Assembly (NCBI GenBank): GCA_036265815.1
Contig: DATAOI010000052.1
Span: forward strand, 124,001 to 188,000
DNA from: Gemmatimonadales bacterium
GTDB taxonomy: Bacteria > Gemmatimonadota > Gemmatimonadetes > Gemmatimonadales > GWC2-71-9
Length of the DNA stretch: 64,000 nucleotides
Direction: 5' to 3'
Of this stretch, positions 12,624 to 42,748 are shown piece by piece. A model generated the notes under the pieces. It saw nothing but the letters and a program-made list of their open reading frames with translations. It was not told the DNA's origin and ran no database searches. How positions within the stretch are numbered: position 1 is the first letter of the stretch; every line of letters begins with the position of its first letter. A program made the translations under genes and the position numbers.

Positions 12624-13417
12624 CAGCCCCCCTCTTTGATCATGGTGCGCGGATCCAGTGAGACACCCTTTTGACGGATTTCGAAATGCAGGTGCGGCGC
12701 GCTCGATCGGCCGGTATTGCCGCTCAGGCCGATGACCTCACCGGGCGCGACCGCTGCGCCGGCCGTGACCAGGATCCGCGACAAGTGGCCATACATGGTC
12801 TGGTAGTCGTCGGGATGGCTCAGCAGGACGAAGAACCCGTATTCCGGATCCTCGCCGACCTGCTGCACCGTGGCGCCGCCGGCCGCGCGCACGACGCTTC
12901 CGATCGGCACGGCGACGTCGATGCCGGGATGAGCTTCATCGGCCGACCCCGTCCCGACCTGTCCTCGTGTGAGATAGCCCGCCTCGTCGAGAGGCCAGCG
13001 GCTTGGCAGGGTGAGCCCGTAGGCCGGCCCCGGGGCCGGGGCGGTAACCCGCGCCAATACCTGGGGAGCCACCGGCAGCGGCGCGCCCAGGGTGAGCGGG
13101 TCGCGCACGATGTCTCCACCCACCATCTGTCGCACCTGGGCATAACGGGATTCGAGGCTGTCGAGGGCAGCAGAGAGCTGGCGAATCTTGGCGTTGTCGG
13201 CCTGGAGCCGAGAGACTTGTCGCTCGAGGCCGGGCACTCGAGCCGCGGCTCGGAGCAGCGGCCCATAGAGCGCTGCCACCACGATCAGGGCGAACGCCGC
13301 GGTGCCGGCGAACGCCCCTGCGGCGCGGAGGACCCATAGCGGAACCCGGAGGGTCTGCGCCCGCGCCGTGCCATCCCGCTGGATGACGACGGTGACCGCG
13401 CGTGACCCGACCCTCAT
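12623..13417 (-). CDS. M23 family peptidoglycan endopeptidase (LytM domain), membrane anchored
   Basis: A 264-residue protein with a basic cytoplasmic tail, one hydrophobic helix (about 28-55), a coiled coil (about 58-95) and a C-terminal LytM/M23 zinc peptidase domain (about 160-255). Zinc ligands are in HPGIDVAVP (His and Asp) and HLHFEIR (His-x-His). It should cut peptide cross-links in the periplasm. ATG 13417 overlaps the parB stop (ATGA), and its own stop overlaps the bactofilin start. M23 peptidases paired with bactofilin are known from Helicobacter (Csd1 with CcmA), which supports a cell-shape role. Confidence 0.9.
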   Translation of the reverse strand: MRVGSRAVTVVIQRDGTARAQTLRVPLWVLRAAGAFAGTAAFALIVVAALYGPLLRAAARVPGLERQVSRLQADNAKIRQLSAALDSLESRYAQVRQMVGGDIVRDPLTLGAPLPVAPQVLARVTAPAPGPAYGLTLPSRWPLDEAGYLTRGQVGTGSADEAHPGIDVAVPIGSVVRAAGGATVQQVGEDPEYGFFVLLSHPDDYQTMYGHLSRILVTAGAAVAPGEVIGLSGNTGRSSAPHLHFEIRQKGVSLDPRTMIKEGG

Positions 13418-14307
13418 CCCTCGAAGGGTCGGCCGAGCATGAGCTCGAGCAGCCGAGCAAGATCGTCGTTGGAGTAATAGCTGATGGTGAGAAACCCGCG
13501 CCCCCTTCGCCGGGTCGTCACCCGTACGTCGGTACCGAGGCGCTTCCGGAGCTCGTCCTCCACCCGGCGGGCGTCGGCACTCACTGCGCGTGGGGCCGCA
13601 CGGGGGCGGCGGGGCCGGTCTACGGCCGGCACCTCGGCACTCACGTCGCCGCGCACCCGCGCCTCCATCTCGCGAACCGACCATCCCTGCTCCACGGCCT
13701 CCTGCGCCAGGCTGCTCATCCGGGCAGGATCCTCCAGTGCCAACAGCGCGCGCCCGTGCCCCTCCGAGAGCTTCCGCTGATGCAGCAGTGCCTGCACCTC
13801 GGGAGGGAGCTGAAGCAGGCGAAGGAGATTGGCTACCGTCGCCCGGTTCCGTCCCACCATCCGGGCGATCTCCGCCTGGGGCAGGTGGAACTCGGCGGCG
13901 AGACGCTGGTACCCGGTGGCTTCGTCGATGGGAGAAAGATCGTCGCGTTGCAGATTCTCGATGAGCGCCAGGGTCAGCAGCGTCTGATCGTCGACTTCCT
14001 TCACCACCGCCGGGATTTTGCCCCACCCGAGCCGCCCGGCAGCGCGCCACCGCCGCTCGCCCGCGATGAGCTCATACCCGCCGTTCCGCGGCCGCACCAC
14101 GATCGGCTGCAGCAGCCCGGAGGATTCGATCGATGCGACCAACTCGGCCAAGGCGGTCTCGTCGATCTCGCTCCGCGGCTGATAGGGGTTCGGCCGGACG
14201 CTCGCGATCGGCAGCTCGCGGAGTCCACTCGGCACCCCAGACTGCTCCCGCGAGACCGGCCCCAGCAACGCTTCGAGCCCGCGCCCCAACCGCTTGGTTT
14301 CGCTCAT
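13414..14307 (-). CDS. parB: Chromosome partitioning protein ParB
   Basis: A 297-residue CTPase/DNA-clamp protein of the ParB/Spo0J family. The N-terminus RLGRGLEALLG is the ParA-stimulating motif. The CTP-binding domain contains NPYQPR and GERRWRAA. The helix-turn-helix region is around SEGHGRALL and NRATVANLLRLLQLP. The C-terminal dimerisation domain includes RRRGRGFLTISYYSNDDLARLLELM. It should load at the two parS sites found upstream of parA and spread along DNA. It overlaps parA by four bases upstream and the M23 gene by four bases downstream. Confidence 0.97.
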   Translation of the reverse strand: MSETKRLGRGLEALLGPVSREQSGVPSGLRELPIASVRPNPYQPRSEIDETALAELVASIESSGLLQPIVVRPRNGGYELIAGERRWRAAGRLGWGKIPAVVKEVDDQTLLTLALIENLQRDDLSPIDEATGYQRLAAEFHLPQAEIARMVGRNRATVANLLRLLQLPPEVQALLHQRKLSEGHGRALLALEDPARMSSLAQEAVEQGWSVREMEARVRGDVSAEVPAVDRPRRPRAAPRAVSADARRVEDELRKRLGTDVRVTTRRRGRGFLTISYYSNDDLARLLELMLGRPFEG

Positions 14308-15119
14308 GTGGCCACCTCCGGGAGAGAGGCCGGCGGCTCGGCGAGCGCTCCGCTCTCCACTCGGCGAAGCAGCTCCTGACCGACGGCGAGGTAACTCTTG
14401 GCCCCGACCGACTGCACGTCGTACAACAGAATCGGCTTGCCGAAGCTCGGCGCCTCCGCCAGCCGCACGTTGCGCGGAATCGGCGTGGCGAAGACCTTGG
14501 CGCCGAAGTATTCCTTGGCGTCTTCCGCCACCTGGCGGCAGAGGTTCAACCGCGAGTCGTACATCGTGAGGAGCACGCCGGTGATGGCCAGTCCGGGATT
14601 GAAGTTCTGCTGGACCAGCCGGACGGTATTGAGGAGTTGCGAGATGCCCTCAAGGCCATAGTACTCGCACTGGATGGGGATCACGACTGCGTTCGAGGCG
14701 GCGAGCACATTCAGAGTCAGCAGACCAAGCGACGGTGGGCAATCCACCACGATGTAGTCATAGTCATCCTGCAGATCGGCCAGTATTCCGCGAAGCGCCG
14801 CCTCACGACCCTGGCGCTCGACGAGCTGCAGCTCGGCGCCGACCAGGTCCTGGGTCGCGGGCAAGACCGACAGATGAGGCAGCCCCGGAACCTGGACGAT
14901 GACTTCTTTGGCCGGCAGCCCCTCCACCAGTGCGTCGTAAAGCGATAACTCCAAGTCGTGTTTGGTGATACCTACGCCACTGGTGGCGTTCCCCTGAGGG
15001 TCGGCGTCCAGCAGCAGGGTGCGCCGCTCTGCCACGGCGAGCGAAGCGGCCAGGTTCACGGCAGTCGTGGTCTTCCCGACGCCACCCTTCTGATTGGCAA
15101 TCGCGATGATATGTGCCAT
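14304..15119 (-). CDS. parA: Chromosome partitioning ATPase ParA/Soj
   Basis: A 271-residue ParA ATPase. The deviant Walker A KGGVGKTTTAVNLA occurs at the N-terminus, the switch region DADPQGNATSG follows, and Walker B is YIVVDCPPSL. There is no N-terminal DNA-binding domain, so it is the short chromosomal Soj type that binds DNA non-specifically and moves ParB complexes. It is the first gene of the parA-parB-M23-bactofilin operon. The 5' region holds a parS site 130 bases upstream. Confidence 0.97.
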   Translation of the reverse strand: MAHIIAIANQKGGVGKTTTAVNLAASLAVAERRTLLLDADPQGNATSGVGITKHDLELSLYDALVEGLPAKEVIVQVPGLPHLSVLPATQDLVGAELQLVERQGREAALRGILADLQDDYDYIVVDCPPSLGLLTLNVLAASNAVVIPIQCEYYGLEGISQLLNTVRLVQQNFNPGLAITGVLLTMYDSRLNLCRQVAEDAKEYFGAKVFATPIPRNVRLAEAPSFGKPILLYDVQSVGAKSYLAVGQELLRRVESGALAEPPASLPEVAT

Positions 15120-15251
15120 GAAGGCTTTTCTTTAAGTTCTTGTGGGGTAATAGCTTAGATGTATTTTGCTATCGCTGGCCGGAAGGGGGTCTGGCCTAGG
15201 AACTGGCGACAAGGTGCAATATAGGCATGCAAGGCGTCAGCGCAAACACTG

Positions 15252-15267
15252 TGTTTCACGTGAAACG
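15252..15267. promoter_or_regulatory. parS: parS site 1 (15 of 16 matches)
   Basis: TGTTTCACGTGAAACG differs from the consensus ParB site TGTTTCACGTGAAACA only in the last base. It lies 130 bases upstream of the parA start. Confidence 0.93.
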
Positions 15268-16053
15268 CGATTGATTGAAGAAGCACCACGAGGGAGTCTA
15301 GTGCGCACGAGCGGAGTTGGAGACTGAGGCAGTGAGGCGGCGAGATACGTGGAAAGGAGCCGGAGCGAAAGGAGGAGAGGGGAGAGTGGGAGGAGGCACG
15401 GGAGAACGAGCCGATGAAGGGAGGGAGGCGGAGGGGGAGCAGGCGATGAGGGGGTGGAGAGCAGACGATGCGTATGGAGGCAGGACAAGGCGAGGGCCGG
15501 GGAAAGGAGAAGGAACGAGCCGGAGAGGGAGAGTTGCTGAGGCGGGAGAATGGGTGCCGGCCCGGGGCTTGAGCGCGGGGCTGGAAGGGAGGTCGGATCG
15601 CCAGCCGAAGTGATCGCCAAAGATCCCGCATCGAGGCTGGGGTCGGGAACCAGGAAGGAGTGCGAAGGAGCCGAATGAGTGAGGCCCGGAAGGGGGAGGG
15701 CTATCGGCAGGGGGTGCGGAGCCCCGTTGAACCAGGATGAGGAGGCCGATTCGGGGGGAGACGGAGGAGAGCAGACTGACTGGAACGAAGGCTCGATCGG
15801 TACACCGGTCTCAGCCGGCCCTGAGGAGGAGGCCGCGGCCGCAGGACTCGGACCTAAAGCGTGAAATCCGAGTACACTCGGCGGATCAGCAGTTTGGCGG
15901 GGGTTCTGTCGCGCGACAGTGGCGTGAGGCTGGAGACTCTACAGGGCGTCACATGTGCGAAGCCCACGAGGAGCTTGCAGCAGCTAACGGGGACGGCTAG
16001 GAAGAGGTGCGAAGAGGCTCTGCTGAGAGGCTATGCTGGAGAAGTTGGAGAAG

Positions 16054-16095
16054 TTTTGCTGACGAGGCTTTGCGGATGAGCTTTTGCTGATGAGG
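16054..16095 (+). repeat. Imperfect 14-base direct repeat next to parS site 2
   Basis: TTTTGCTGACGAGG and TTTTGCTGATGAGG match in 13 of 14 bases with starts 28 bases apart. A third, weaker copy (CTCTGCTGAGAGG) begins at 16018. Function unknown; they lie within 40-120 bases of parS site 2. Confidence 0.45.
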
Positions 16096-16132
16096 ATGTG
16101 TTGCTAACTCGATTGCCATGCCTGGCGAGCCC

Positions 16133-16148
16133 TGTTTCACGTGAAACA
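16133..16148. promoter_or_regulatory. parS: parS site 2 (perfect 16-base palindrome)
   Basis: TGTTTCACGTGAAACA is the exact consensus parS sequence. It lies four bases past the mnmG stop codon and 881 bases from site 1. Confidence 0.97.
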
Positions 16149-16152
16149 CACC

Positions 16153-18012
16153 CTACTGTTTATGAATCTTGAGTACCTCCATCACAAGACTCTGAACGTC
16201 ACTTGGGGACACGCCCGGAATCCGACTCGCCTGTCCGAGGGACATTGGGCGAGCCAGATGAAGTTTCTCCCTGGCCTCGAACGAGAGCGTGAGTAGACTC
16301 TCGTAGTCGAGATCGGCCGGAAGGCGGAACGCGTCCATTCGACTGAGATTCGAGGCTGCCGTCCTCTCCCTCCGCAAATATCCGGTGTACTTGAATTCGA
16401 TATCGGCCCATTCGGTCGTTTCCGGGTCAGCCGCGCAGCCCGCGGCCCGGAGTAGCCCCAGAGTCGAGACGCCTGGGCGCCGAGCCAGATCCGAGAGCCG
16501 TTGAGGCTCTGCTGTGGGGCTAAACCCCGCCTGTTCGAGGATCGGAGCCGAATCGGATGGACTCAGCGAAGTGGCCTCCGCAAAATCCCTTACCTCCTCT
16601 TCGGCCTTGAGTCTGACTTCAGCGGTACGCAGCTCGTCGGCCTCCAGGAGGCCGAGCCGCTCCGCCAGGGGGAAAATCCGGCGGAGCGCGTTGTCTTGGC
16701 GCAGTAGCAGTCGGTATTCCGACCGGGACGTGAACAGCCGATAGGGTTCATCCACCCCGCGGCTCACCAGATCATCGACGAGCACGCCGATGAACCCCTC
16801 GTCCCGCGCCACTACGACTGCTTCGTTGCCGAGCGCGGAAGCCGCGGCGTTCAAACCGGCGATGGCCCCTTGGCCTGCGGCCTCCTCATAGCCGGTTGTG
16901 CCGTTCACCTGGCCAGCCAAGAAGAGGCCCTCGATGTGCTTCAACTCGAGCGTGGGCCGAAGTTGAGTGGGCGGGAAATAGTCGTACTCGATCGCGTATC
17001 CGGGGCGAGTCATGCGGACCAGCTCCAGTCCCGGAATCGTGCGAAGGAACTCCAGCTGCACGCCGGCCGGCAACGAGGTCGAAAGCCCGTTGACGTACAT
17101 CTCCGTGGTATCGAGACCCTCGGGCTCGAGGAAGATCTGATGTCGCTCCGCCTCGGGAAACTTGACGATCTTGTCCTCGATCGAGGGGCAGTATCTCGGG
17201 CCGCGACCGCTGATCGCTCCGCCGTACAGGGCCGACTCTCGAAGGTGGCGAGTGATGATGTCCCGCAGCCGGCCGCCGGTGTGGGTCAGGTAGCAGGGAA
17301 GCTGCCGAGGATGGTGGGCGCGCTCATAGAAGGAGAACCAGAAGGGAGAATCGTCGCCCGGCTGCCGAGCCAGGGCGTCCAGGTTGACCGACCGCCCATC
17401 GATCCGAGGTGGCGTTCCTGTCTTGAAGCGTTCAGTCGTAACCCCAAGATTCTCAATCACTTGCGAGATTTCTAAGGATGGCGCCTCTCCCGCGCGACCG
17501 GCCGGGATCTGCGTGTCGAGCCCCAGATGTATCCGGCCTCGCAAGAAGGTCCCGGCCGTGAGCACAACTGCCGGCGCCTGAAACCGCCGGCCATCCAGCG
17601 TGGTGACGCCCTGAACCCGGTGACCGCTCATCAGAAATGTGGCGGCAGTGCCTTGGGCCGTGTCAAGATTGGCTCGGCGCTCGAGGAGCGAGCGCACCGC
17701 ACGACGATAGAGGCCGCGGTCACACTGGGCGCGAGGCGAGCGGACCGCGGGTCCCTTCGAGCCGTTGAGCATCCGGAATTGAATCCGCGCGAGGTCCGTC
17801 GCTCGGCCCATGATCCCGCCGAGCGCGTCGACTTCGCGCACCACGGTGCCCTTGGCAATCCCGCCGATGGCGGGATTGCACGACATCTGGCCTATGGTCT
17901 CGAGATTCTGGGTCAGAAGGAGGGTGCGCGCACCCGACCTTGCCGCCAGGGTGGCGGCTTCCGCGCCGGCATGTCCAGCGCCGATCACGATCACGTCGTA
18001 TCGATCGGTCAT
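16153..18012 (-). CDS. mnmG: tRNA uridine-5-carboxymethylaminomethyl(34) synthesis enzyme MnmG
   Basis: A 619-residue FAD enzyme (GidA) that works with MnmE to modify wobble uridine 34 of tRNAs. The FAD-binding [10 protein letters not shown] is at the N-terminus, followed by [13 protein letters not shown] and the family segments [20 protein letters not shown] and [16 protein letters not shown]. The C-terminal helical domain interacts with MnmE and tRNA ([18 protein letters not shown]). Length is normal for the family. It leads into the parAB locus as in many bacteria, but rsmG does not follow. A TATCTT hexamer sits six bases before ATG. Confidence 0.97.
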
Positions 18013-41303: not shown

Positions 41304-42203
41304 ATGAGCACAGATAATCTGGTCGGCCGCACGGTGGCGGGATACCACCTCGCAGAGTACATCGGCGAGGGTGGCACCGCTACGGTCTATCGGGCCGAGC
41401 ATCCGCAACGCGGAACCGCGGCGGTGAAGATCCTGCGGCCGAAGCTGGCGCAGGATCCGGTGGCCGTGAAGCGCTTCCTGCGCGAGGCCGAATACGGCGC
41501 CCGGGTCAAGCACCCGTCCATCGTGCAGACCTACGACTTCGGGGCCACCGACGGATTGCACTATCTGGCGCTGGAATGGGCGCCGGGGGAGCCACTAGCC
41601 AAGTTCTCCAGCCGCTCAGGGCGACTGGCACCCACGCTGGTGGCTACCATCGTGGAGCAACTCACGGCGGCCCTGGCGGCGTCGCATAAGGCCGGGATCA
41701 TCCATCGCGATCTCAAGCCGGAAAACATCATGTATGACCCGGCGACGCAGAGCGCCAAGCTGCTGGACTTCGGGATCGCTCGGGACGCGGAGCTCAGCCC
41801 AGAGGAGCGGCTCACCCGGGCTGGCTTCTTCGTGGGCTCGCTCCAGTACGTGGCGCCGGAGACGCTGAGCGGCGAGCTGGTGAACGAGCAGGCAGATGTC
41901 TACAGCCTCGCGACGATCACCTACCATCTGCTGACGGAGGCGTTCCCGTTGACGGGCCGGAGCCCGAGAGAGTTGTTCCAGCAACTACTCTCTCAACCGC
42001 CTTTGCCACTCAACCAAGCGGTGAAGGGGCTCAAGTTCGCGCCGGCAATCGAGGCGGCGGTGATGCGTGGGTTGGAGCGCGATCTCTCCAAACGTTCCAA
42101 GACAGTGGACGAGTTCGCGCGGGAGTTCTGCACGGCGGTACGGCAGGAGGGCTCCAAGAAGGGCGGCTTCCTGGCGTCGCTCTTCCGCAAGGGCGGCGAT
42201 TGA
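41304..42203 (+). CDS. Ser/Thr protein kinase, soluble Hanks type
   Basis: A 299-residue protein that is almost only a kinase domain. The glycine loop is IGEGGTATVYRAEH, the ATP lysine is in AAVKILRPK, the catalytic loop is HRDLKPENI, followed by DFGIAR and an APE motif in VAPETLSG. There is no membrane helix or sensor domain; the C-terminus ends in a basic tail, EGSKKGGFLASLFRKGGD. It overlaps the TTG start of pyrE by four bases, an unusual kinase-biosynthesis pairing. Substrate unknown. Confidence 0.92.
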   Translation: MSTDNLVGRTVAGYHLAEYIGEGGTATVYRAEHPQRGTAAVKILRPKLAQDPVAVKRFLREAEYGARVKHPSIVQTYDFGATDGLHYLALEWAPGEPLAKFSSRSGRLAPTLVATIVEQLTAALAASHKAGIIHRDLKPENIMYDPATQSAKLLDFGIARDAELSPEERLTRAGFFVGSLQYVAPETLSGELVNEQADVYSLATITYHLLTEAFPLTGRSPRELFQQLLSQPPLPLNQAVKGLKFAPAIEAAVMRGLERDLSKRSKTVDEFAREFCTAVRQEGSKKGGFLASLFRKGGD

Positions 42204-42748
42204 CCGACGAAGATGCGCTCCGGCGCCTGCTCCTCGCGCGGTCGGTACGGCATGGCGATTTCGTTCTCTCCTCTGGGCAACGCTCTTCCTATTACATAGA
42301 CTGCCGGCTCAGCACGATGAGCGCCGAGGGGATGGTGCTGATCGGTCGGATGGGGCTGGCGGCGATCCGGCGCGCGGGGTGGGCTCCCAAGGCCGTGGGC
42401 GGGCTGACAATGGGCGCCGACCCGGTGGCGTACGCCATCGCGGCGGCGAGCCATGGGACGGACCTCGAAGTCGATGCATTCAGTGTGCGGAAGGAGCCGA
42501 AGGCGCACGGGATGGGGCAGCAGATCGAAGGCAACTTCAGGGCAGGGGACCGAGTCGTGATCGTGGAGGATACGATCACGACGGGAGGGTCGGCACGGCG
42601 GGCGATCGAGGCGGTGGAAGCTGCTGGGGGGAAGGTAGTTGGGGTGTTGGCGGTGGTGGATAGAGAGGAGGGGGGGAGGGAAGTGTTGGAGCGCGCTGGC
42701 AGGGAGGTGGTAGCCATTACTACTGCTAGTGGATTAGCGCTACGTTAG
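42200..42748 (+). CDS. pyrE: Orotate phosphoribosyltransferase
   Basis: A 182-residue enzyme converting orotate and PRPP to OMP in pyrimidine synthesis. The PRPP-binding motif is VVIVEDTITTGGSA. The N-terminal FVLSSGQRSSYYIDCR and AFSVRKEPKAHGMGQQIEG (the catalytic Lys loop) are characteristic of PyrE. The length is that of the short form. A TTG start overlaps the upstream kinase stop (TTGA). The 3' end is G-rich. Confidence 0.95.
   Translation: MTDEDALRRLLLARSVRHGDFVLSSGQRSSYYIDCRLSTMSAEGMVLIGRMGLAAIRRAGWAPKAVGGLTMGADPVAYAIAAASHGTDLEVDAFSVRKEPKAHGMGQQIEGNFRAGDRVVIVEDTITTGGSARRAIEAVEAAGGKVVGVLAVVDREEGGREVLERAGREVVAITTASGLALR

Follow-up and report, generated by a model that had tools for sequence, protein, structure and literature searches.

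The window analysed here, 64,000 nucleotides of a fragmented MAG assembly (the genome under study, G000), carries mnmG, parA and parB on the minus strand in the order mnmG, parS2, spacer, parS1, parA leader, parA, parB (Table 1). The initial annotation had recognized two ParB sites, one perfect and one with a single change, and both were recovered where it had placed them. They match the 16-bp parS palindrome TGTTTCACGTGAAACA and are the sole sites with at most two mismatches in the 4.59 Mb genome scanned; the chance expectation at up to three mismatches is 0.04 sites in the 64-kb window. Adjoining parA and parB genes encode products with the family domains, and ParB carries the GERRxRA motif. 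The locus is an ordinary chromosomal centromere (parABS), here of a Gemmatimonadota bacterium; what is unusual is its spacer, which is species-specific. The purine-rich kilobase considered below is the intergenic gap between mnmG and parA. We found no paper describing this locus in Gemmatimonadota.

Table 1. Features of the mnmG-parAB region; positions are numbered from the first base of the window
Feature	Position	Strand	Remarks
parB	13414..14307	(-)	ParB_N, HTH_ParB, ParB_C; GERRWRA CTP-binding motif
parA	14304..15119	(-)	AAA_31/ParA ATPase
AATATA on + (TATATT on -), -10-like box, putative parA promoter	15218..15223	(-)	basis: position and sequence
parS1, parA-proximal	15252..15267	.	TGTTTCACGTGAAACG, 1 mismatch
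Inter-parS spacer, non-coding, 865 bp	15268..16132	.	66.9% purine on +
Purine-bias core	15361..15540	(+)	148 purines, 32 pyrimidines
Cryptic 9-, 13- and 14-base tandem micro-repeats, mnmG-side end of spacer	16013..16094	(+)	
parS2	16133..16148	.	TGTTTCACGTGAAACA, 0 mismatches, 4 bp past mnmG stop codon
mnmG/gidA	16153..18012	(-)	GIDA, SAM_GIDA_C

The locus resembles known chromosomal parABS centromeres in its canonical parS 16-mers beside parAB, its ParA, and a ParB with ParB_N, HTH_ParB and ParB_C domains and the GERRxRA motif. It differs from them in that there are two parS sites, each tied to one flanking gene, and in that the DNA between them is of very variable length and, in three species, purine-biased. 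Additionally, it can be compared with the classical order mnmG-rsmG-parA-parB, in which rsmG follows mnmG. As in that cluster, mnmG stands directly upstream of parA and parB and all are co-directional; unlike in that cluster, no rsmG was detected in the genome or its order, and the corresponding slot is occupied by a non-coding spacer or by unrelated cargo. At the parA end, the AATATA box lies 28 bp from parS1 in G000 and is probably the -10 element of the parA promoter, a spacing that would place parS1 just upstream of the -35 element; a consensus promoter scan returned no parA promoter. The box occurs in the parA leaders of 72 of 87 relatives vs 4.7% of shuffles, most commonly 27-30 bp from parS1, and parS2 lies a median of 29 bp past mnmG in the relatives. 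To judge from these positions, parS1 usually belongs to the parA side and parS2 to the mnmG side.

On the plus strand, the base composition of the spacer is A.235, C.198, G.435 and T.133, and across the whole interval from parS to parS (15252-16148; G 383, C 177, A 212, T 125; 66.3% purine) both skews run in the same direction, G over C and A over T. The A/G-rich stretch of the initial annotation is therefore real, and only its count of 31 pyrimidines at 15361-15540 needs amendment, to 32. Because the bias is densest at 15300-15600, with peak 100-base windows of 86% purine, and drops to 56-66% toward mnmG, the description "mostly A and G" holds most strongly in the parA-side third. Rarity was judged on 666 of the 4590 kb of the genome: on the 303 kb contig purines reach 68.1% in the top 865-base window and 58% in the runner-up (contig SD 2.3 points), and a further 363 kb contains no departure from 50% at the 865-base scale exceeding 8 points. 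The spacer is the most purine-biased kilobase of the 666 kb sampled. Second within the window is a coding sequence, the 3' half of a pyrE-like gene (42200-42748), with 71% purine over 180 bases. For the spacer itself the earlier statement that the bias has no coding explanation holds: a contig-trained codon model scored no ORF as coding, and Pfam had no match for the two ORFs tested, those that looked longest.

The mnmG-parA gap was gathered from about 95 relatives (Gemmatimonadales or Gemmatimonadetes MAGs, designated by the other G numbers) and measured in 78 family genomes, where it spans 121-1478 bp (median 210) and holds the parS pair, usually as two sites. The inter-parS spacer ranges from 6 to 1243 bp across the relatives, many of which have the same locus with just 6-30 bp separating the sites. 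Within the genus it is 19-23 bp in G004, G005 and G008, which have the same parABS, 275-288 bp in G009 and G007, and 825-865 bp in G001, G006 and G000. Four relatives carry a cargo gene in the slot, encoding a lipoprotein-like protein of 372-392 aa in G032, G100 and G101 (with a PD40 repeat in the one scanned) and a protein unrelated to these in G124. Since the spacer varies so widely in length, down to 19-23 bp in congeners, and gives way to gene cargo in some genera, the kilobase is dispensable for the locus; the comparison shows the inter-parS DNA to be a dispensable spacer that grows, shrinks or gains cargo between species. Among other possibilities, the initial annotation had suggested a partition/origin element with ParB clamps at its two ends, a reading that by its own account would be refuted by a normal gene here in relatives or by loss of the bias in them. 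Some relatives do have such a gene, others have only 6-30 bp, and several lack the bias, so that the proposal is left unsupported; by this comparison the purine kilobase is not a required or conserved partition or origin element. An origin of replication at the spacer was rejected as well. No DnaA boxes occur close to it, and dnaA is on the same contig but at a distance of 143 kb. Neither a DnaA-box cluster nor a clear GC-skew minimum was found in the contig, so that oriC is not placed here by these data.

Composition behaves differently from length. The strong purine bias recurs in two congeners only, G001 (825 bp; A.224, C.192, G.434, T.150) and G002 (244 bp present on its contig; A.193, C.234, G.426, T.148), in the same orientation and with near-identical composition. 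Homology among these three spacers is undetectable, alignments being no better than those of shuffles or reversed sequence; they have no common motif, and those of G000 and G001 have no k-mer in common beyond composition expectation. An array of protein-binding sites was ruled out on this ground and for want of any over-represented k-mer. The 850-bp spacer of G006, sister to G001 in an mnmG tree with weak support within the genus, is unbiased, as is the long spacer of G007 in the same place. In G003, which is perhaps the nearest relative and whose MnmG matches at 91% over 57 aa, the locus is broken at contig ends. Across the family the gaps lean only weakly in this direction, with a mean purine fraction of 0.529 and values above 0.5 in 62 of 78 genomes, the species not being independent. 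In the cross-genome comparison for which the initial annotation called, the bias recurs in two congeners and is absent in others, and no sequence is conserved. Recurrence at the same place and in the same orientation in two congeners suggests that the bias may not be the pure accident of one genome.

An interpretation emerges when the spacer is read in the sense of mnmG and parA, that is, on the minus strand, where C is.435 and G.198. By a RhoTermPredict-like rule, which seeks 78-nt windows with C>G and a C every 11-13 nt (PMC6407284), 770 of the 788 windows of the spacer pass on the sense strand and 0 on the other. A C/G ratio of at least 3 is found in 32% of its 78-nt windows vs 0.08-0.18% contig-wide, the gap has the top whole-gap C-over-G excess among 50 gaps in the contig, and the G001 spacer bears the same rut-like signature. 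Folding of the spacer RNA is better than that of shuffles on neither strand (z +2.2 for plus, +1.1 for the other), and no intrinsic terminator was found in the mnmG-parA gap of G000. Rho is encoded in the genome; two proteins with a Rho RNA-binding domain are found in it (G000:C37:16974-17195 and G000:C9:21752-21967). Because the sense RNA would be C-rich, G-poor, weakly folded and rule-passing, with no intrinsic terminator and with Rho encoded, a terminator acting through Rho in the mnmG-parA gap is the reading of the bias that we tentatively favour. In the scheme that we propose, ParB, whose clamps slide on DNA (reviewed in PMC7333895), would enter at either parS and, as ParB biochemistry suggests, move across the spacer regardless of sequence. 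In this scheme parS1 would sit just upstream of the parA promoter, parS2 lies just beyond the mnmG stop codon, and the non-coding sense RNA of G000 and the two congeners would act as a long Rho-utilisation (rut) region, ending mnmG transcription before the parA promoter is reached. The whole proposition, a parABS centromere with a dispensable spacer whose purine bias reflects such a rut region, is offered as tentative, with a likelihood somewhat below even; should the rut part prove correct, the centromere would contain a transcription barrier made by base composition and not by any conserved sequence.

The likeness to known Rho-dependent terminators lies in a C-rich, G-poor RNA of regular C spacing and weak structure that follows a stop codon, with an intrinsic terminator absent and Rho present. 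There are also differences: the spacer is about ten times the minimal length, is not conserved across the family, and is a predicted terminator. Other points count against the rut reading. A rut requires about 80 nt rather than 800; the excess of C over G behind stop codons is only weak across the contig; and the bias includes A>T, for which Rho has no need. Moreover, the 850-bp spacer of G006 is unbiased, and most of the short-gap species lack an intrinsic terminator too, so that a terminator is not generally needed here. In two relatives, G030 (L094) and G024 (L100), the gap has one parS, which forms part of a longer, perfect hairpin with a T-rich tract behind it on the mnmG-sense strand. 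There parS seems to serve also as a structure like an intrinsic terminator for mnmG; these hairpins suggest that ending mnmG transcription in the gap can matter.

The main rival to the Rho reading is that the spacer is non-functional filler, grown by slippage and duplication of purine-rich DNA between the parS sites, its bias accidental and without a role. We regard this as a real possibility, though on balance improbable. A spacer that is dispensable and unconserved is what it predicts, the micro-repeats at the mnmG-side end are a sign of local slippage growth, and distinct k-mers are fewer than in shuffles (6- to 8-mers in G000, 7- and 8-mers in G002; z ~ -3). However, the G001 spacer shows no such simplicity and yet has the same base composition, and neutral DNA stripped of its homology should have lost its strand bias too, unless the spacers arose separately. 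The inter-parS DNA of a subset of the genus may be selected for composition alone, as an insulator parting mnmG transcription from parAB and perhaps barring the transcription machinery from the ParB-loading zone; this we consider unlikely.

More doubtful still is strand-asymmetric mutation (for example, G-to-T on the mnmG-sense strand) arising from transcription or ParB occupancy. Both skews carry the sign expected of asymmetric G-to-T/C-to-A change, as does the weak family-wide bias of the gaps described above. Against it, the congeners G006 and G007 have long spacers in the same place that are unbiased, and the four-fold sites of the flanking mnmG, parA and parB show no skew in this sense. 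The bias is therefore confined to the spacer, and mutation asymmetry acting regionally was ruled out.

About as doubtful is a selected role for the composition as such, independent of sequence, within the partition complex, whether through stiffness, through retention of ParB clamps or through loading of SMC between the parS sites. It would accord with the most biased kilobase in 666 kb being bounded by both parS sites, and with three congeners having the same composition without homology; it sits poorly with G004, G005 and G008, in which the same parABS has 19-23 bp there, and with a spacer that lacks any enriched motif, mirror repeat or strict G4. The family offers a natural series of centromeres, with inter-parS distances from 6 bp to >1 kb, and with it a ready test of whether ParB loading depends on the DNA between its sites. 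The unusual DNA structure that the initial annotation had entertained fares no better: the spacer contains no strict G4 (G3+N1-7 x4), its longest purine run is 20 bases and its longest mirror arm 7, and G-quadruplexes and triplex/H-DNA were ruled out for lack of a strict G4 and of a long homopurine mirror repeat.

A purine-rich RNA transcribed from the plus strand, also among the earlier suggestions, is very improbable: purine loading is common in RNAs, but the spacer has no Rfam match, no promoter-like site for such a transcript and no sequence conservation, and the plus-strand RNA folds worse than shuffles. With Rfam silent and folding as reported above, a structured RNA was dropped.

Finally, the reading of the spacer as a remnant of rsmG or of another gene lost from between mnmG and parA is close to refuted: the classical gene order, the failure to find GidB in G000 and the cargo genes in some genera speak for it, but RsmG (GidB, PF02527; the 16S rRNA m7G527 methyltransferase) passes the Pfam cut-off in 0 of 61 genomes (G000 and 60 others of the order), so that rsmG was not lost recently here, and the cargo proteins have no match to the G000 spacer. 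A decayed rsmG was ruled out on the former ground, no close relative having rsmG at this place, and a remnant of the beta-propeller cargo gene on the latter, tblastn giving no match in the spacer. The slot shows two further peculiarities among the relatives. The inter-parS spacer of G011 (L077) has a palindromic repeat of the TCATTGCGAGCGCAGCGAAGCAATCT type. The cargo genes of G101 (L165) and G124 (L177) start on parS itself, (A/G)TG TTT CAC GTG AAA being read as the N-terminus M/V-F-H-V-K, and the cargo protein of G100 (L179) likewise has an FHVK motif near its N-terminus.
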